Both the position numbers and the translations under genes were made by a program. A stretch of 64,000 bases of DNA from assembly GCF_000305785.2 (NCBI RefSeq), contig NC_018868.3, forward strand, positions 4,138,270 to 4,202,269, in the 5' to 3' direction. Each line of letters opens with the position of its first letter. Position 1 is the stretch's first letter. Shown here piece after piece: positions 44,549-53,980 of this stretch. A model generated the notes under the pieces. The model saw only the letters and a program-made list of their open reading frames with translations, was not told the origin of the DNA and did not search any database. Source of the DNA: Simiduia agarivorans SA1 = DSM 21679 (lineage in GTDB: Bacteria; Pseudomonadota; Gammaproteobacteria; Pseudomonadales; Cellvibrionaceae).

Positions 44549-45106
44549 TCACAGCCGGATCAGATCACCTTCCACCACCCAACGCTGATCCGGGTTGGCA
44601 CTGGCTCCGGTAAACGGATAGCAGGTGACCAACACCACCTTGTCCGCGTGTTGGCGCGCCAATGGTTCAGCGTGAATATCCACGGCGCCCACCCGACTCA
44701 CCTGGTAGCGATACCAGCGCCCATCCAGCCCCTGAATCGAAAACGCCTGGCCGGTTTGCAGGTGTTGCAGGTCGGCAAAATGGGTATCCCGGTGACCGCC
44801 CACCACACTGTAGCCCTGGCCGAGCGGATCGCTGCCTTCCACCAGGCCCGGGCCAAACGCCAGCGCATTGCCCTGGCCGCCGTTTAACACCATGAGTTCA
44901 CGGCCGTTGGGCAGCGCGAGTTTTGCCACCGGGTAGGTGTCGGCCCAGGCCCAGGGCCGCACGGCCTGGCCCTGGCTGGCCAGGCTGCTGGCCCAGGCCT
45001 CGGCGATCAACACCTGGGCCAGCCAGGCTTTGGCGTGAATCCAGCCGGCCTGGCTGAAGCTGATCAGTGCGCACGCGCAGCACAGGGCGATGGCCAGTTT
45101 ACGCAT
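44549..45106 (-). CDS. Class GN sortase
   Basis: A 185-residue membrane-anchored transpeptidase of the class GN sortase family, the single dedicated sortase of the proteobacterial Pds systems. An N-terminal helix (about 4-25) anchors it in the inner membrane. The catalytic triad is visible: His105 in VVGGHRDTHF, Cys162 in VLVTCYPF and Arg175 in NPDQRWVVEGD. The gene overlaps the end of its predicted substrate gene by 8 bases and is co-transcribed with it. It is expected to attach the VIT/VWA protein to an acceptor near the cell surface. Confidence 0.93.
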   Translation of the reverse strand: MRKLAIALCCACALISFSQAGWIHAKAWLAQVLIAEAWASSLASQGQAVRPWAWADTYPVAKLALPNGRELMVLNGGQGNALAFGPGLVEGSDPLGQGYSVVGGHRDTHFADLQHLQTGQAFSIQGLDGRWYRYQVSRVGAVDIHAEPLARQHADKVVLVTCYPFTGASANPDQRWVVEGDLIRL

Positions 45107-47243
45107 GGCGACGTCTCCGCAATAAGCCGGCCATCAGCAGCGAAAGGCAGCCGGCAATCAACCATAAGGGCGCCGGGGTGGCCGTGCGCGGGTAGGCGAG
45201 GGTGGGCGTACCGGCGGGCAGCGTGTTGGCCACGGCGGTTTTGCTGAGCGCCTGATCCATTGGGCGCACCGGGGTTTCTTCCACCGCCACAAAACTGGTG
45301 TAGGGCGACAGCAACTGATGGGTCAGGGCAATGGGCAGCACTTCGTTGCGCACCTCTTCGCGGGATTTACCGGTGACCAGCTGATCCAGCAGTGCGTCGA
45401 TTTTGGCTCTGGCCCAGAGAGTGGCCACGCCTTTGCTTGCAGCACCGGGTTGATTGGGCGTGAGTGTCAGCGTGGTGCGCCAGTCGCCCGCCTGCGAACG
45501 GCCAGACACCGCGATGGTTTGCCCCACAAACGGGCCTCTGAGCCGGGCCGCCACCAGCAGGGGTTGGTGGGCGTAAAGATCGGGCAAACGCGCGGGCCAT
45601 TGTTCAACCTCAACCGCCTGCGGCCAGTCGATTTTTACCTGCGTGAGCGCCGCGCTTTCGAGCTTGTCGAACAGTTGCTTCATTTTCTGGTTGACTTCAT
45701 TTACGTCGCCAATCTGGACAAAATCCCCGCGCCCGAATTGCGCCGCCTTGCGCATGAAAAATCCGTTCGGGGCCGAGCCAATGCCCACGGTAAACAAACG
45801 GGTTGCGCCGAGTTTGTGATGAATCAGGCTGAGCAATTCCTGTTCGTTGCCCACGCTGCCGTCGGTAATGAACACCAGCTGCTGCAACCACAGTTCAGAC
45901 GCCGGTTGATTGAGTGCCGCTTCCAGCGCCGGTTTCATTTCAGTGCCGCCACTGGCTTGTAAGTTGCGCACAAAATCGTGCGCGCGCGCCAGATTCTGGC
46001 TGCTGGCGGGCACCGATGCCGGGAACACCTGGGAGTAGACCGAATTGAATTCGATCACGTTGAACCGATCCGACGGTTGCAGGCGGGCAAGCGCCAGTTG
46101 CAGGCTGGATTTGGCCTGCTCGATGCTCGGGCCCGACATGGAACCGGAGGTGTCGATGATAAAGGTCACATCGCGGGGTAAGTTGCTGGTGTGAGGGCTC
46201 TGGCCCGGCAGCAGCATCAGGTAGCCGTAATTTTCTCCCTCGACCATTTCGGTAAAAAACGCCGCTTTCGGTGCAGCACCTACCACCGGGGTCCAGTGCA
46301 ATTCGAAATCCCGATCCATCGCCACCTGCGGTTCGCGGGTGGTGATGTGGTGGTATTCGCCCTGTTTGTGCAAATCGATTTCGTGATAGCTGGCGGCGAT
46401 ATTCGACAGCGGCAACCCGGCCTGCAATCTGACCCGAAGGGTGATCGGGTTGATCAGCCCGGGGCTGTGCGCGCTGTGGCGTTGCGGCGGGGTAATTTTA
46501 TCGGCATCGGGCACTTGCGTGGTGGGGCGGGCCCAGCCGAAATAATCGGTGGTCATGGCGTCGGGCAGTGTGGGTTCGGCCGGCGTTTCTGATTCGGGCA
46601 GGCTTGCCGATACGCCCATCAGCGGCTGGCCCGGAATATAACGCGGGGTGAGGGTGGTGGGCAGGCGCCAGCTGAAACGGCCGGCCCGGTAATCCACCGG
46701 TTGGGTGATTTCCAGTTTGATGGCGACGGTTTCACCCGGCGCCAGATTCGCCACTTTCTGGGTGAACAGGTTGGGCCGTTGTTGTTCGGTCAGCGCGGCC
46801 CGTTTGCCGGCTTTTACGGCGGCCTGGTAGATTTTTCTGGCTTCCTGTTTTTCCCGGATGGTAGCCACAATGCGTTTTTCGCCAATGTGCATTTCCATGC
46901 GGTTAACGGCCGAGGTTTCGTTCAACGGGAAGGTGTAAGTGGCTTCCTGCCATTGGTCCGAATCGTTGCGGAATTGCTGGGTCAGGCGGATGCGGGCGAT
47001 CAGCCCGGTGATGTCCACGTCGGCCTCGGACTCGAGGTGGGTGGCCGCGTGCCCGGAGGCAAAATGCAATTCGCCGCTGTGACTGGCCGGCATTTCTGCG
47101 CGCGCCACGTCGGACAAAATCAGCCCGAGCATCACCAGCGTGCAGGTGAGCACACAGCCCACCCAATGGCGTTGCAGCCAGCCGGGTTTTGGGGGTTGTT
47201 CCAGAATCAGGTGGCGGGGGATTTTCCGGGGCTTGAAACACAT
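45099..47243 (-). CDS. Pds sortase target protein (VIT and VWA domains)
   Basis: A 714-residue exported protein. An N-terminal membrane/signal segment (about 28-48) is followed by a VIT domain (about 55-185) and a VWA domain with the MIDAS motif DTSGSMSG at 364-371, then about 150 residues of further strands. The C-terminus is a sorting signal: AYPRTATPAP, a hydrophobic helix and RRRRHA. Inter-alpha-trypsin-inhibitor-type VIT/VWA proteins are the known substrates of class GN sortases. The start at 47243 has AAGGAG seven bases upstream; a longer frame starts further up without one. The sortase gene overlaps its 3' end. Confidence 0.93.
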   Translation of the reverse strand: MCFKPRKIPRHLILEQPPKPGWLQRHWVGCVLTCTLVMLGLILSDVARAEMPASHSGELHFASGHAATHLESEADVDITGLIARIRLTQQFRNDSDQWQEATYTFPLNETSAVNRMEMHIGEKRIVATIREKQEARKIYQAAVKAGKRAALTEQQRPNLFTQKVANLAPGETVAIKLEITQPVDYRAGRFSWRLPTTLTPRYIPGQPLMGVSASLPESETPAEPTLPDAMTTDYFGWARPTTQVPDADKITPPQRHSAHSPGLINPITLRVRLQAGLPLSNIAASYHEIDLHKQGEYHHITTREPQVAMDRDFELHWTPVVGAAPKAAFFTEMVEGENYGYLMLLPGQSPHTSNLPRDVTFIIDTSGSMSGPSIEQAKSSLQLALARLQPSDRFNVIEFNSVYSQVFPASVPASSQNLARAHDFVRNLQASGGTEMKPALEAALNQPASELWLQQLVFITDGSVGNEQELLSLIHHKLGATRLFTVGIGSAPNGFFMRKAAQFGRGDFVQIGDVNEVNQKMKQLFDKLESAALTQVKIDWPQAVEVEQWPARLPDLYAHQPLLVAARLRGPFVGQTIAVSGRSQAGDWRTTLTLTPNQPGAASKGVATLWARAKIDALLDQLVTGKSREEVRNEVLPIALTHQLLSPYTSFVAVEETPVRPMDQALSKTAVANTLPAGTPTLAYPRTATPAPLWLIAGCLSLLMAGLLRRRRHA

Positions 47244-47320
47244 GGCTGAACTCCTTGCTGATAATCGCAGTGATTTGATGAGCACACTGTGGCGCAGGAA
47301 GTGGGTGTCAGCGGGTCAGC

Positions 47321-47360
47321 AATGTGGCTGGGCGGTGATCAATTGTGGCGAAATGTGGCA
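47321..47360 (-). promoter_or_regulatory. Candidate PdsR boxes upstream of the sortase target gene
   Basis: On the minus strand, TGCCACATTT and CGCCACAATT are tandem 10-mers (47351-47360 and 47341-47350) with a third related copy (AGCCACATT) at 47321-47330. The same tandem box occurs before pdsO in the same orientation relative to transcription, so both Pds transcripts share it. The spacing of 10 bases suits an OmpR/PhoB-type dimer. Confidence 0.5.
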
Positions 47361-47443
47361 ATGGCCATGAAAGCAGGCACGGGCACAAAAACTGGTTACA
47401 ATGACCGCGAACAGAAAAGCCCAAGTAGAAGGAGCAGGCGCGG

Positions 47444-48136
47444 ATGGCACGCCATATTGCAGTGGTTGAAGACGAAGCGGATCTGGCCGCCAACAGCGAA
47501 GCCGCGTTCCGGCGCGCGGGTTTTCAGGTGAGCGTGTACAGCTCGCGGCCCGAAGCGTTAAAGGCGTTTCGGGAGCGTTTGCCGGACCTGGCCATTATCG
47601 ATGTGGGGCTGGGCGCGGAATATGAGGGCGGATTTGATTTGTGCCGCGAGCTGCGCAGCATGTCGGCCACCTTGCCGATTATTTTTCTGACTGCGCGCGA
47701 CAGCGATTTTGATGTGGTCTCCGGGCTGCGCCTGGGGGCAGACGATTACCTCACCAAGGATATTTCCCAACCGCACATGCTGGCGCGGGTGAATGCCTTG
47801 TTCCGTCGGCTGGACGCGCTGGCGTCGGTCTCGGGTGCCGGCGATTGCCTGCAGCGCGGGCCGCTGACCCTGGACATGGACCGGATGGCCGCGCACTGGC
47901 ACGATCAGGTGCTGGATCTGACGGTAACCGAGCTCTGGATTCTGGCGGCACTGGTGAAGCATCCGGGTCATGTGAAAAGCCGCCAACAATTAATGGATGC
48001 CGCCAACGTGGTGCTGGATGACAATACCATCACCTCGCACATCAAACGCATCCGCAAAAAATTCCAGGAATTTGACCCTGCGTTTAACGCCATTAAAACC
48101 GCCTATGGCATGGGCTATCGCTGGGAGCTGAGTTGA
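47444..48136 (+). CDS. pdsR: Pds sortase system response regulator
   Basis: A 230-residue OmpR/PhoB-type regulator. The receiver has the acidic pair at residues 10-12 (VVEDEAD), phospho-acceptor Asp53 in LAIIDVGLG, and the conserved Lys in DDYLTKD. The C-terminal winged helix (about 130-228) contains LTVTELWILAALVKHPGHVKSRQQLMDAA and the YGMGYRWELS end. In the proteobacterial dedicated sortase system it is expected to control the sortase target and PdsO. The ATG follows AGGAGCAGGCG; the stop overlaps pdsS. Confidence 0.93.
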   Translation: MARHIAVVEDEADLAANSEAAFRRAGFQVSVYSSRPEALKAFRERLPDLAIIDVGLGAEYEGGFDLCRELRSMSATLPIIFLTARDSDFDVVSGLRLGADDYLTKDISQPHMLARVNALFRRLDALASVSGAGDCLQRGPLTLDMDRMAAHWHDQVLDLTVTELWILAALVKHPGHVKSRQQLMDAANVVLDDNTITSHIKRIRKKFQEFDPAFNAIKTAYGMGYRWELS

Positions 48137-50124
48137 GTCTGCGCCGCCAGTTAATTTTATTGAGTTTGTTGGCGCTGGTGTTGCCCTGGGCCGGCTTGCA
48201 GTTTTTTGCCCAGATCAATCAGGTGCAGCGCGACAGCCAGATGCAGGCGTTGGGCCTGGGCAGCCAGGCGGTGGCCCGTGTCATCAGCGCCAGTGGCGAC
48301 CTGTTGGCGGCCATGACCCAGCAGTTGCCGCGGCCTGCACAGTCGCCCCTGTATGCCTATCCCGTCAACGCCGCGCCGATTGTGGATGGCTACGACGACG
48401 AATGGCGTTATTACCCCTTTCCCTCCACGCCACTGGGTGACGGCCGGGCCAATGTGCAGATTGCCGATGCCCTGGGCGACTGGTTTGTGTTTGTCAGGGT
48501 CAACAGCGCCCGGGTGGACTACCACAATCCGGGCCGGCATCCGGCCGCCAGCGGTGATCACCTGCGCCTGCTCGGGCGCGACAATCGGGGCCAGGTAAAA
48601 GAATACTGGGTTTCAGCCAGTGCGCCCGGCAAAGCCCAGATGTACCGGCGCCAGGCGCGCCAGCAGTTTGCCCCCGAACATCGCTTCACGGCCTATTGGC
48701 AGGAGCGCGCCGGTGGTTATCAACTGGAATTGCGTTTGCCCAAATCTTTGTTCGGCCATTTTTTATTGGTGCAGGTGGCCGATGCCGGCGGCGTGGTGGC
48801 TGCCAGCCAGGCCGGCGAGGATGTACCGCCGCTGATGGCGCAGTTGCCGCAGTTGAATAAACAGCTCGCGGTATTCAGCTCGGATCAACTGCGGTTGCTG
48901 TTGGTGTCGGTAGACGGCTGGCTGTTGGCGCAAGGCGGCCGGGCGCTGCCACTGGCGGAAGAGCCGGATTACGGGCAACCGGATGAGGCCGGTGCCTACG
49001 CCTGGATTTTGCAACGCTTATTGCCGCAAACCCGGCTCGCGCCCTGGCGCGATGCGGCGGTGCAGGGGCGGTTGATTCCGCCCCCGGAGGCAAGCCACTG
49101 GTATCAGGCCGATGACACCGTTTTGGGCCAGCATTGGCAACCGGTGTATGCCGGCGATCAATTGGCCGGTTATCTGGTGGCCGAGCAACAGGCGGAAACC
49201 GAAAGCAATGCCACTACCCAGGCCTTGTGGAAATTGCTGGGTTACAGCCTGTTGGCCATGGCCGTCATTGCCATGGCCTTGTTGGGCTTTGCCAGTTGGT
49301 TGAGTTTCCGGGTCCGGCGTTTGAGCCGCGCGGTGCGCGCGGCGGTGGACGATCAGGGCCAGCTCGCCACCCGTTTGCCGGAGCAGACCCGTGCAGACGA
49401 GCTGGGCGACCTGAGCCGCGACATTGGCGGCTTGTTGGCGCGCATCAAAGAATACAATGATTATCTGAGAAGCCTGGCGTCAAAACTCTCGCACGAATTG
49501 CGCACGCCGTTGGCCGTGGTGAAAAGCTCGCTGGAAAATCTGGCGCAGGAAAGCGACCCAGGGCAAATCACTTTGTATCAACAGCGGGCTCTGGCCGGCA
49601 GCGAACGCCTGAGTGCCATTCTCAATGCCATGAGTGCGGCCTCGCGCCTGGAGGCCGCCTTGCCACAGGCGGAACTGGAGCCCCTGGTGCTGAATGATTT
49701 TCTGCGTGAACTGGCGGGGGCTTACTCGGACAGTTTCAACCGGCCCATCAATGTGAGCCTGCCGGAACTTACGTTGAATGCAGAGGTTGCGCCCGATTTA
49801 CTGGTGCAATTATTCGATAAGTTAGTGGAAAACGCCTGCGATTTTTGTCCGCTAGAGGGCGAAATCACGTTACTGCTGCGCCTGAGCGACAGCGGTATTG
49901 TCCTCGGTGTTAGCAATGACGGCCCCTTGTTGCCCGAACACATGCAGCACCAATTGTTCGATTCACTGGTATCCGTGCGCGAAAGCGCGGAGCAGGGGTC
50001 GCACCTGGGGCTGGGACTGTATCTGGTGCGATTGATTGCCCACTACCACGGCGGTATTGCCCGTGCCGCCAACCGCGCCGATGGCTCCGGGGTGGAAATG
50101 ACGGTGCTGCTCAAACGCACATAA
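48133..50124 (+). CDS. pdsS: Pds sortase system histidine kinase
   Basis: A 663-residue sensor kinase. Membrane helices lie near residues 5-25 and about 370-395, enclosing a large periplasmic sensor of about 340 residues that includes an AAPIVDGYDDEWRYYPFP module resembling CBM9-type carbohydrate-binding domains. A HAMP region follows, then HisKA with His454 in KLSHELRTPLAVV and a HATPase domain (DNACDFCPL-like N box and GLGLYLV). The start is a TTG overlapping the pdsR stop, so translation is coupled. It is the partner of PdsR. Confidence 0.92.
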   Translation: MSLRRQLILLSLLALVLPWAGLQFFAQINQVQRDSQMQALGLGSQAVARVISASGDLLAAMTQQLPRPAQSPLYAYPVNAAPIVDGYDDEWRYYPFPSTPLGDGRANVQIADALGDWFVFVRVNSARVDYHNPGRHPAASGDHLRLLGRDNRGQVKEYWVSASAPGKAQMYRRQARQQFAPEHRFTAYWQERAGGYQLELRLPKSLFGHFLLVQVADAGGVVAASQAGEDVPPLMAQLPQLNKQLAVFSSDQLRLLLVSVDGWLLAQGGRALPLAEEPDYGQPDEAGAYAWILQRLLPQTRLAPWRDAAVQGRLIPPPEASHWYQADDTVLGQHWQPVYAGDQLAGYLVAEQQAETESNATTQALWKLLGYSLLAMAVIAMALLGFASWLSFRVRRLSRAVRAAVDDQGQLATRLPEQTRADELGDLSRDIGGLLARIKEYNDYLRSLASKLSHELRTPLAVVKSSLENLAQESDPGQITLYQQRALAGSERLSAILNAMSAASRLEAALPQAELEPLVLNDFLRELAGAYSDSFNRPINVSLPELTLNAEVAPDLLVQLFDKLVENACDFCPLEGEITLLLRLSDSGIVLGVSNDGPLLPEHMQHQLFDSLVSVRESAEQGSHLGLGLYLVRLIAHYHGGIARAANRADGSGVEMTVLLKRT

Positions 50125-50131
50125 AGTGCCC

Positions 50132-50151
50132 CGCCACAATTCGCCATAATT
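50132..50151 (+). promoter_or_regulatory. Candidate PdsR boxes upstream of pdsO
   Basis: CGCCACAATT and CGCCATAATT form a tandem 10-mer repeat 114 bases before the pdsO ATG. One arm is identical to CGCCACAATT upstream of the sortase target gene. The repeat would suit a response-regulator dimer. Functional proof is lacking. Confidence 0.5.
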
Positions 50152-50210
50152 CATCGGTAACCCGCCTTTTTTCATCGATTCTCCCGCCTGTTTCTGTTGG
50201 TTAACTACTC

Positions 50211-50264: not shown

Positions 50265-50978
50265 ATGAAAAAAGTTATCGCAACCGCCATCGCACTGACC
50301 ACTCTCGCCGCCGCTTCTGTAACACCGCAAGCGCAGGCCGCCGAGTACACCGAACTTAAACAAGGTACAGCATTCACTACCGGGAGCCTGGTAGGTGCCA
50401 TCGCCGGTGGCCCCATCGGGATGTTTGTGGGCGCACTGGCAGGCATTTACGTGGCCGAACAAATCGAACAGGTGGACAACCAGGAGGATCTCACCGTGGC
50501 ACTTGCGCAATCACAAAAACACGCCGAACTGCTGAGCATGGAATTGGCCGCCCGCAACGAGACGCTGGCCACACAAGAGCAGTTGATGTCGCAACTGGAG
50601 ACTCTGGCTTTGGACAAATTACAGCTGCAGGTGATGTTCCACACCGGCTCCGATCAGCTCACCGAGCAGGGCGCCGACCAGATTGCGGCGCTGGCGAATT
50701 TCCTCGCCAACAACGATGACCTGTTCATTCAGCTCAAAGGCCACACCGATCCGCGCGGTACCGATGAATACAACAACGTGCTGTCCCAGTACCGCGCCAA
50801 GGCAGTGCAGCAGGCGCTGGAGGCGGCCGGCATCGACGGCGATCGCATCGCCGTGAGTGCCTACGGTTCCGATCAGTCCCGCGCACGCAAAGGGGATCTG
50901 GAGGCTTACGCTCTGGAACGCCGTGTGGATATCCAGATTCTGTCGCCCGCCCGCGATGCGGTGGTCATGGGTCACTGA
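50265..50978 (+). CDS. pdsO: Sortase-associated OmpA-like protein
   Basis: A 237-residue exported protein. A signal peptide (about 1-25, ending PQAQAAE) is followed by a glycine-zipper-like hydrophobic segment (SLVGAIAGGPIGMFVGALAGIYV, about 40-62), a short coiled coil (about 66-115) and an OmpA-type peptidoglycan-binding domain (LTEQGADQIAALANFLANN, the IQLKGHTDPRGTDEYN motif and the RKGDLEAYALERRVDI end). It is the conserved companion of the Pds sortase. The start at 50265 is preceded by AGGAAAC. It has no sorting signal itself. Confidence 0.93.
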   Translation: MKKVIATAIALTTLAAASVTPQAQAAEYTELKQGTAFTTGSLVGAIAGGPIGMFVGALAGIYVAEQIEQVDNQEDLTVALAQSQKHAELLSMELAARNETLATQEQLMSQLETLALDKLQLQVMFHTGSDQLTEQGADQIAALANFLANNDDLFIQLKGHTDPRGTDEYNNVLSQYRAKAVQQALEAAGIDGDRIAVSAYGSDQSRARKGDLEAYALERRVDIQILSPARDAVVMGH

Positions 50979-51158: not shown

Positions 51159-51208
51159 GTTGGCGCTCACACCCTTGGGTAAGGCTTTGCCGGTTATTTA
51201 TCCGGCCA

Positions 51209-51275
51209 GGGGCGCCCGGCTAGGGGCGCCCGGCCAGGGGCGCCCAGCAAAGGGGCGCCCAGCAAAGGGGCGCCC
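51209..51275. repeat. Five GGGGCGCCC palindromic repeats
   Basis: GGGGCGCCC occurs at 51209, 51223, 51237, 51252 and 51267, i.e. with 14-15-base spacing, ending 13 bases before the predicted ffs -35. Each unit contains the 8-bp palindrome GGGCGCCC. They may be an upstream activating or nucleoid-protein-binding region, or a simple tandem expansion. Confidence 0.7.
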
Positions 51276-51331: not shown

Positions 51332-51443
<112 letters not shown>

Positions 51444-51536: not shown

Positions 51537-53980
51537 ATGTTGCGAATTGCTGTTGTAGGCCTGCTGTTGGGCTTAAGTTGTTCATTTTCTGTACAAGCTG
51601 CCATTTCTCAGACCAAAGGCGATTTCGAAGACAAATTCCGCCAGCTGGATGAAGTGCTGCCCACACCCAATGTCTACCGTGCGGCCACCGGTGAGCCCGG
51701 CCCCAGTACTGGCAGCAGGAAGTGGACTACAAGATCGATGTTCGCCTGAACGAAGCCAAGCGTCGGCTGGACGCCAGCCAGACCATCACTTACACCAATC
51801 ATTCCCCGCACACGCTCAAGTATCTGTGGCTGCAGCTGGACCAGAACCGCTTCCGGTTGGATTCCATGGCCGAAACCACGCTGACCTTTGGCGGCATTGG
51901 CAACCGCGGCCCGTCTACCCGCTCTGCCACGCCGGAGTTGCCGGCCGGCATCAGTCTGGCGGAACTGCGCCGTCAGCAGTGGTTGGCCGACCACGAGGTG
52001 GGTTACACCATCAGCAATGTGAAAACTGCACAAGGGGTAGCTCTGCGCACCACCACCGTGGGCACCAATTTCCGCATCGACCTCGATAAACCGTTAAAGT
52101 CCGGCGAAGCCGTCACCTTCAGCATGGATTTCGCGTTTAACATCGTGGAAGAAGATGCGGTGTCGGCGCGCTCGGGCTATGAGCATTTTCCCGATGACCC
52201 ACGCAAGGGTGGCAATGACATTTTCCTGCTGGCCCAGTGGTTCCCGCGCTTGCATGCGTTCACCGATTACGAAGCCTGGACCAATAAAGAGTTTCTGGGG
52301 CGCGGTGAGTTCACACTCGAATTCGGCGATTACGAAGTCAACCTGACGGTGCCGGCCGATCACATTGTGTCGGCCACCGGCGAGCTGCAGAATCCGGAGC
52401 AGGTGCTGACCAAAACCCAGCGCGAGCGCCTGGAAAAGGCCCGTACTGCCAAGCGCCCGGTGTTTATTGTGACCCAGGAAGAAGCGGAAAAAGCCGAAAA
52501 ATCCGCCACCAAAAAAACCAAAACCTGGCAGTTCAAAGCCGAAAAGGTGCGCGATTTTGCCTGGGCCTCCTCGCGTAAGTTCATGTGGGATGCGCGCGGT
52601 TACCAGCAGGGCGGCGATGTGATGCCCGTGGTTATGGCCATGTCGTTCTATCCGAAAGAGGGTGGTGACCTGTGGAAAAAATATTCCACCGAGTCGGTCA
52701 TTCACACCATGGAGGTCTACTCGCGCTTCTCGTTTGATTACCCTTATCCGGTGGCGCAGAGCGTGAATGGGCCGGTGGGTGGCATGGAATACCCCATGAT
52801 CACTTTCAATGGTCCGCGCACCACCTTGCACGAAGACGGCACCCGCACCTGGACCCAGGCGGAAAAACGCTTCCTGATTGGTGTGGTGATCCACGAGATC
52901 GGCCACATCTATTTCCCCATGATCGTGAATTCCGACGAGCGCCAATGGACCTGGATGGACGAAGGCCTGAACAGCTTTCTCGACGGCGTGGCCGGACGCG
53001 AATGGGACCCGGAAATGCCCTGGGGCGTGGAGCCGCGCGATATCGTGGATTACATGAAGTCCGATATTCAGGTACCGATCATGACCCAGTCGGATTCGGT
53101 CTTGCGTTTGGGCCCCAACGCTTACACCAAACCGGCGGCGGCGTTGAATATCCTGCGCGAAGTGATTCTGGGCCGCGAATTGTTTGATTACGCGTTCAAG
53201 GAATTTTCTGTGCGCTGGCAGTACAAGCGCCCGACACCTGCCGACTTCTTCCGCACCATGGAAGAGGCCTCCGGTGTGGATCTGGATTGGTTCTGGCGTG
53301 GCTGGTTTTACAGCACCGATCACGTGGACATTTCACTCGATAAGGTGTGGCAGCTGCGGCTGGACACGAAAAACCCCGATGTGGATTTCAAGCGCCGCCG
53401 TCTGGAAGAGGCCGACAAGCCTCAGCCGCTGTTTGAGAAGCGCGAGCGCGATGCCGGCAATAAAACCTGGCTGGAGCGCAACAAGGATATCCGCGATTTC
53501 TACGATGAAAACGATCGCTTCACGGTGACCAATAAAGAACGCAACGCTTACAAACAGCTGTTGGAAGATCTGGAGCCCTGGGAGCGCGAGGTGTTGGAGC
53601 GCGCGGTGAAAGAAGACAAGCATTACTACGTGATGGATTTCAGCAATCTGGGTGGTTTGGTGATGCCGATTCTGCTGGAACTGACCTATAAGGATGGCAG
53701 CGTGGAAGAGCGCTACATTCCGGCAGAGATCTGGCGTCGTTCACCTAAGGCGGTATCCAAGCTGATTGTGACCGACAAAGAACTGGTGCAGGTGGTGGTG
53801 GACCCGCGTTGGGAAACCGCCGACGTGGACAATGAAAACAACCATTACCCCCGTCGCATCATCAAGTCGCGCATCGAAGCTTATAAAGATGAGGAGCGTA
53901 CTGATCCCGTGTATCGCGACATCATGCACGACATCACCACCAAAGAAGAAAAACCCAAGCCCGGGTTCCATAAAAAATGA
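51537..53980 (+). pseudogene. M1 family metallopeptidase, frameshifted near its N-terminus
   Basis: A secreted zinc metallopeptidase of the M1 family, about 814 residues if one base is restored. The signal peptide and first 55 residues (51537-51700) are in one frame; the rest, from PQYWQQEVDYKID, is in another. The break is in a CCCC run at 51701-51704, where one extra C restores the frame. The active site is intact: HEIGH followed 18 residues later by Glu in WMDEGLN. The downstream DUF6702 gene overlaps the stop. The change could be a sequencing error, a phase-variable tract or a real inactivation; the body of the gene shows no other damage. Confidence 0.8.

Follow-up and report, generated by a model that had tools for sequence, protein, structure and literature searches.

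Simiduia agarivorans SA1 = DSM 21679 carries a proteobacterial dedicated sortase (Pds) system within the window, that is, the whole 64,000-nucleotide stretch analysed here (positions 4138270-4202269 of the 4.30 Mb single-contig genome). The sortase and its target protein are encoded on the minus strand, and pdsR, pdsS and pdsO on the plus strand (Table 1). As in the proteobacterial dedicated sortase system defined by TIGR03784, TIGR03785, TIGR03787, TIGR03788 and TIGR03789, all five genes are present, here in a single locus and each with the corresponding model as its best family. The sortase, the target and the regulator exceed the NCBIfam model cut-offs; the kinase PdsS and PdsO fall under theirs, yet the Pds models are still their best match. 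PdsO exceeded the TIGR03789 cut-off in none of the 144 genomes of the family. The second-best NCBIfam families are CreB for PdsR (177.3 bits) and CreC for PdsS (130.8 bits). The subject of this analysis is a pair of tandem 10-bp boxes that occurs twice at the locus, upstream of both the target gene and pdsO, and that is predicted to form the operator of the OmpR-type response regulator PdsR.

The pair before pdsO reads CGCCACAATT/CGCCATAATT (50132-50151, plus strand) and the pair before the target gene TGCCACATTT/CGCCACAATT (47341-47360, minus strand). Both lie where the original prediction had placed them, in the same orientation relative to the genes they precede and with the gene of the OmpR-type regulator between them. 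Their distances to the start codons, anticipated at about 100-115 bases, are 113 bp for the ATG of pdsO at 50265 and 97 bp for the ATG of the target gene at 47243. The longer target frame in the mechanical list of open reading frames (ORFs), starting with GTG at 47285, would begin ahead of the inferred start of transcription. A further copy had been noticed near 47321; it is real (GCCACATTG, 47328-47320, minus strand) and corresponds to the +31 half-site of the target array. Single 10-mers with up to one mismatch are no more frequent in the window than chance predicts (7 against 8.34 expected). Across the entire 4.30 Mb, the 20-mer tandem pair with up to three mismatches occurs at these two sites only (reversed control: no match), and its frequency in this genome is not random. 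A genome-wide search with GYCAYAWTTNGYCAYAWTT at up to two mismatches returned five sites, two of them exact, none with one mismatch and three with two; the reversed control gave four matches, and beyond the two Pds sites nothing stands out.

Both the target gene and pdsO are preceded by the box in the four genus genomes examined, the three besides that of the window having GCCACAATTNGCCACAATTGATC or a sequence near it. With a first matrix made from these eight genus sites, 81 pdsR loci were scanned (the window and 80 regions from the 109 PdsR-positive genomes of the family). Where the target gene stands beside pdsR, the box lies between the two in 17 of 18 loci, L083 being without one. Where pdsO lies directly upstream of pdsR, the highest-scoring match is before pdsO in 21 of 21 loci, some with modest scores (lowest 10.4, L140). 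A strict pattern gave 88 sites in 64 of the 144 family genomes and none when reversed. Sixty-three of these sites precede a target gene or pdsO, including genes distant from pdsR, all on the strand of the gene and at 279-422 bp upstream of the target model start or 113-193 bp upstream of the PdsO model start. The wider pattern GCCAYAWTTNRYCAYAWTT gave 135 sites in 91 of the 144 genomes against one for the reversed control: 48 before target genes, 44 before pdsO, 15 (in 14 genomes) before the gene of an unnamed membrane protein and 28 elsewhere, and all 107 sites before the first three kinds of gene are on the strand of the gene. The prediction held that the box should recur in other Pds loci, and it does so at the same two genes and in the same orientation, also when these are unlinked from pdsR. 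A strict site is present in 90 of the 109 PdsR-positive family genomes and in one of the 35 PdsR-negative ones (Fisher p 2.9e-18), where it falls within a coding frame. As a separate observation, the target of family genome G022 is over its cut-off and PdsR is not; no strict site precedes this target, and the only strict site lies inside a coding frame.

In a looser form the box is conserved across the Gammaproteobacteria. In an evenly drawn sample of 369 genomes of the class, 58 have a PdsR and 51 a target above the respective cut-off. The strict pattern, with a gap of 1-2, was found in 15 of the 58 PdsR-positive and 2 of the 311 PdsR-negative genomes (p 1.7e-11; two matches in the reversed control), and some of the 15 have no recognised target downstream. 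The other 57 class genomes with a target match returned 29 target loci from other families; a strong upstream box on the strand of the target is present in 16 of 22 loci whose genome has PdsR over its cut-off and in none of seven whose genome does not (p 0.001). The 80 named pdsR loci, drawn from at least 545 and partly from the same genomes as the family set, hold 60 sites in 58 loci, with none in the reversed sequence. Within the limits of the class comparison, these distributions support the view that the box follows the PdsR gene rather than the target gene. A chance pair, or the neutral duplication of one promoter, would agree with the chance frequency of single 10-mers in the window; its likelihood is close to negligible, as many families keep the boxes at these positions and each reversed-control scan gave 0-2 matches, and in our judgement the comparative counts refute it.

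The original prediction regarded the 20-bp pair as the operator. The pair is indeed part of it, but only the distal part of an array that runs to the -10 hexamer and comprises about six half-sites. Aligned target and pdsO promoters share a conserved C at +2, +12, +22, +33, +44 and +55 from the box, in steps of 10, 10, 11, 11 and 11. Near-duplicates were removed from the promoter set (target 72 to 55, pdsO 65 to 37), leaving 92. At least three of the positions +22, +33, +44 and +55 are C in 87 of these (0-8 for seven shifted controls), and all four in 43 of 55 target and 28 of 37 pdsO promoters. A -10 hexamer (TTTAAT, TTTACT or TTAAAT) occupies +68 to +73; TTTAAT is matched at four or more of six positions at +68 in 82 of the 92 promoters, compared with 0-12 at seven shifted offsets. 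The pdsO promoter of the window has GCC at +0, +10, +31 and +53. Regulators of the OmpR/PhoB type bind head-to-tail half-sites, and half-sites over the -35 region with a -10 at fixed spacing are their activator layout. Both features are found here: the half-sites are head-to-tail with a period of 10-11 bp, and a fixed -10 abuts the array over the 92 promoters as in class II promoters, clearly so for pdsO of the window and poorly for its target gene. Among smaller sets of boxed genes, the best offset is +58 for GDPD genes (TAGACT in 4 of 9) and +47 for creD (four promoters) and for alpha-2-macroglobulin (A2M) genes (three of four matching), few and exploratory as these are; the offsets +68, +58 and +47 differ by about one helical turn. 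No clear -10 was seen at the unnamed membrane-protein genes when their promoters were aligned on the box. PdsR could also bind the array and repress the genes, as the sign of regulation is invisible in sequence and half-sites cover the -35 region. The combination of half-sites at the -35 position with a fixed -10 (+68, or +58 and +47 in the small sets) is the layout of an activator, which makes repression unlikely.

Table 1. Genes and predicted promoter elements of the Pds locus in the window
Feature	Position	Strand	Basis
Class GN sortase gene	44549..45106	-	TIGR03784, 190.5 bits (cut-off 158.25)
Sortase target protein gene	45099..47243	-	TIGR03788, 752.6 bits (cut-off 551.65)
Expected target -10 position, CACAGT, poor match	47286..47291	-	
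Further target half-sites +20, +31, +42, +53 (last two weak)	47298..47339	-	Promoter conservation
Strong half-site pair (+0, +10), predicted sortase-target operator	47341..47359	-	Sequence reading, genome scan
Candidate pdsR -10, TACAAT	47397..47402	+	GTTACAATG kept in four genus genomes
pdsR, OmpR-type response regulator gene	47444..48136	+	TIGR03787, 373.9 bits (cut-off 335.7)
pdsS, sensor kinase gene	48133..50124	+	Best family TIGR03785, 495.6 bits (below cut-off 612.2); next CreC, 130.8 bits
Strong half-site pair (+0, +10), predicted pdsO operator	50133..50151	+	Sequence reading, genome scan
Further pdsO half-sites +20, +31, +53 (ATCGGTAAC, GCCTTTTTT, GCCTGTTTC); +42 poor (TCGATTCTC)	50153..50194	+	Conservation over many promoters
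pdsO -10 hexamer TTAACT, +68 from box	50201..50206	+	
pdsO, OmpA-like protein gene	50265..50978	+	Best family TIGR03789, 125.1 bits (below cut-off 152.2)

Taken together, the boxes are very probably the PdsR operator, through which PdsR would activate the target-sortase operon and pdsO jointly. From sequence comparison we infer PdsR as the binder, the activation and the PdsS signal. The two strong head-to-tail half-sites, (G/A)YCAYAWTT with a period of 10 bp (11 in some lineages), would nucleate binding of a PdsR dimer, and the weaker half-sites that follow toward the gene every 10-11 bp (+20, +31, +42 and +53) would extend the bound array over the -35 region, where it could contact RNA polymerase at the -10 placed at +68. 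Half-sites across the -35 region, with about 6 bp from the end of the array to the fixed -10, are the layout of a class II activator, and PdsR would act as one. PdsS would presumably phosphorylate PdsR on an envelope signal, and phosphorylated PdsR would fill the arrays and recruit polymerase to both transcription units. The gene families name a dedicated sortase system, and a literature search over open-licence PMC papers found no operator, regulon or regulation described for Pds, PdsO or PdsR. With the array and the -10 defined to the base, PdsR binding, the regulon and the PdsS signal are directly testable.

Several observations weigh against the operator reading. The array before the target gene of the window is followed at +68 by CACAGT, a poor -10 (the other three genus members have CTAAAT in two cases and CATAAA in one). 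In the family, 19 of the 109 PdsR-positive genomes lack any strict site, a strict site precedes the target in 48 of the 83 genomes with a listed target gene, and 20 of the 35 PdsR-negative genomes belong to one genus and hence are not independent. The first matrix finds nothing nearby in most of the 42 pdsR loci without an adjacent target or pdsO, the exceptions being L087, L096 and L103 and, weakly, L088 and L109. The weights and thresholds of the generalised half-site were set after the genus and family sites had been seen. In the class, a strong box is absent from 6 of the 22 target loci with PdsR and from 21 of 40 further pdsR loci, and in three of the 16 positive target loci (L256, L262 and L263) it lies 1.06-1.3 kb upstream; in the genome of L262 this box stands directly before pdsO (L289). 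The seven PdsR-negative target loci include two with just 184 and 559 bp of upstream sequence, and in five of the seven genomes a PdsR-like sequence scores below the cut-off.

The Pho box is one of the nearest known elements. To our knowledge PhoB is near-universal in the Gammaproteobacteria, and it is over its cut-off in this genome (346.2 bits, cut-off 296.2). Its half-site, TGTCATAWWY, and the tandem arrangement resemble those of the boxes, and in some lineages the boxes have TGTCATAATT half-sites or a period of 11. GDPD genes are found among the targets in relatives, and one class site (G341, L284) precedes genes resembling by eye those of a PhoU-like protein and a phosphate permease; this site may be a Pho box. 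PhoB promoters, like those described here, have head-to-tail one-turn repeats reaching into the -35 region and a -10 at fixed distance. The sites of the window differ in having GCCAC instead of the TGTCA core and a period of 10, and over the whole set the half-site is GCCAYAATT, the steps are 10 and then 11, and the half-sites number about six. The presence of the box splits with PdsR, whereas PhoB is near-universal, and the boxes are found most often before the sortase-target gene and pdsO. With neither the TGTCA core, nor period 11, nor a presence independent of PdsR, Pho boxes bound by PhoB are a very unlikely explanation of the window sites.

The boxes could likewise be the cre/blr tags of a CreB orthologue. 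CreBC is the closest named system after TIGR03787: CreB and CreC are the second-best families of PdsR and PdsS, the motifs have a YCAC core in common, the targets of both include envelope genes, and the box precedes creD in four genomes of one genus. Spacing and core differ, however, and the scores are far below the CreB and CreC cut-offs (177.3 of 273 bits for PdsR, 130.8 of 356 bits for PdsS). Six other OmpR-type regulators of this genome were examined and none is a CreB over the cut-off of 273 bits (best 216.1). The tag, given as TTCACnnnnnnTTCAC in PMC3660660, is missing from both window sites when taken in that form (TTCAC-N6-TTCAC), and a cre/blr identity is most improbable.

Returning to the PdsR operator, a box lies within 330 bp upstream of pdsR in 60 of 161 pdsR loci. 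Autoregulation of pdsR is no more than a possibility, as the spacing of the box to the TACAAT -10 varies between genomes. Assignment of the box to pdsR itself is weakened by the 42 pdsR loci without target or pdsO alongside, most of which have no match nearby.

The original prediction called the operator dedicated to the sortase, its substrate and PdsO. Co-regulation by PdsR is supported by the conservation and the co-occurrence with PdsR, but the word dedicated holds for this genome only, where just the two Pds sites stand out. Among the relatives, one genus has a box upstream of creD in four of five genomes. Of the corresponding CreD proteins, two were scanned and match Pfam CreD (419 and 425 bits), one of them also NCBIfam CreD (431.6 bits, cut-off 275); the remaining two are alike by eye. 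Boxes also stand before genes of A2M-type proteins, including L425 in this genus and L293 in another family, and before those of GDPD phosphodiesterases, a polysaccharide deacetylase, a PBP1A-family protein and a DUF3014 protein. The unnamed protein mentioned above is a helical membrane protein of about 490 amino acids (L383-L396); a strict box precedes the 14 homologues with at least 56% identity to L243. A 42% homologue in the genome of the window (C1:3995121-3996452) has no strict box. Two members that were scanned gave no Pfam or NCBIfam match, and the structure model is of low confidence (pLDDT 69.1, pTM 0.41). The boxed envelope genes, together with CreB and CreC as the next-closest families, suggest that PdsR may be a regulator of envelope maintenance of which the sortase is one branch.

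Small proteins with one predicted helix form another group behind boxes in relatives. The 40 further class regions are pdsR loci without a target directly beside them (one, G401, has PdsR below the cut-off); 19 are boxed, and in seven the box precedes pdsO. A box leads to a short one-helix ORF in L434 and L438 (related), L446 and L466 (weakly related), L447, L379, L381 and L319, and likewise in L366 and L314, whose helix ORFs are just below the strict hydropathy threshold. In L103 and L096 the boxed ORFs are target N-termini of 75-76 amino acids. A further type, NWLALxALLALGxVWP, occurs in eight loci (L339, L341, L345, L351 and L369-L372) and is 32-53 amino acids long in the three measured. 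Its tandem box lies 80-120 bp upstream in seven of the eight, that of L372 being further off, and the seven boxes score strongly in three cases (24.1-26.9) and more weakly in four (17.6-21.5). The +68 hexamer is poor at most small-protein loci, the best being CTCAAT in L351. All six compared pairs of small ORFs differ least at the second codon position, as coding sequence does. With the strict threshold, a small helix ORF was found in 5 of the 22 pdsR loci judged to lack a target, 0.05 being expected from shuffles; these loci represent 19 genomes (L096/L309, L088/L306 and L093/L311 share a genome), and the other examples are below the threshold or come from further loci outside the 22. The short single-helix ORFs of L434, L438, L446, L466, L447, L339, L341, L345, L351 and L369-L372, and one in L441, lie divergent from pdsR and are mostly boxed.

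These short ORFs are likely unannotated small proteins, and we infer their control by PdsR from the boxes. Some relatives resemble the PhoQ/MgrB feedback (PMC8404706) in that a small one-helix membrane protein is encoded next to the regulator gene and behind a box of the regulator type; the window has no such protein. That these proteins act on the kinase PdsS in the manner of MgrB on PhoQ is a guess. A broader conjecture, which we consider doubtful, is that PdsRS may be an ancestral CreBC-like envelope-stress system that recruited a sortase. The conserved boxed one-helix proteins of genomes in which the full target gene does not adjoin pdsR, some being target N-termini cut to a basic tail and membrane helix and others of the NWLALxALLALGxVWP type in Steroidobacteraceae-type loci, would then feed back on PdsS, the target N-terminus being the origin or equivalent of the feedback peptide. 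The small proteins behind the same type of box are a separate testable lead.

Downstream of pdsO, the window contains a bacterial small signal recognition particle (SRP) RNA gene at 51341-51437 on the plus strand (RF00169, 74.7 bits, gathering threshold 40). Directly upstream of it is a GC-rich tandem repeat (51202-51275) with a period of 14 and 5.1 copies. At 51537-53980 on the plus strand, a signal-peptide-like start (ATG 51537) is out of frame with a long peptidase-like frame (from 51722), and this gene looks split in the present genome.

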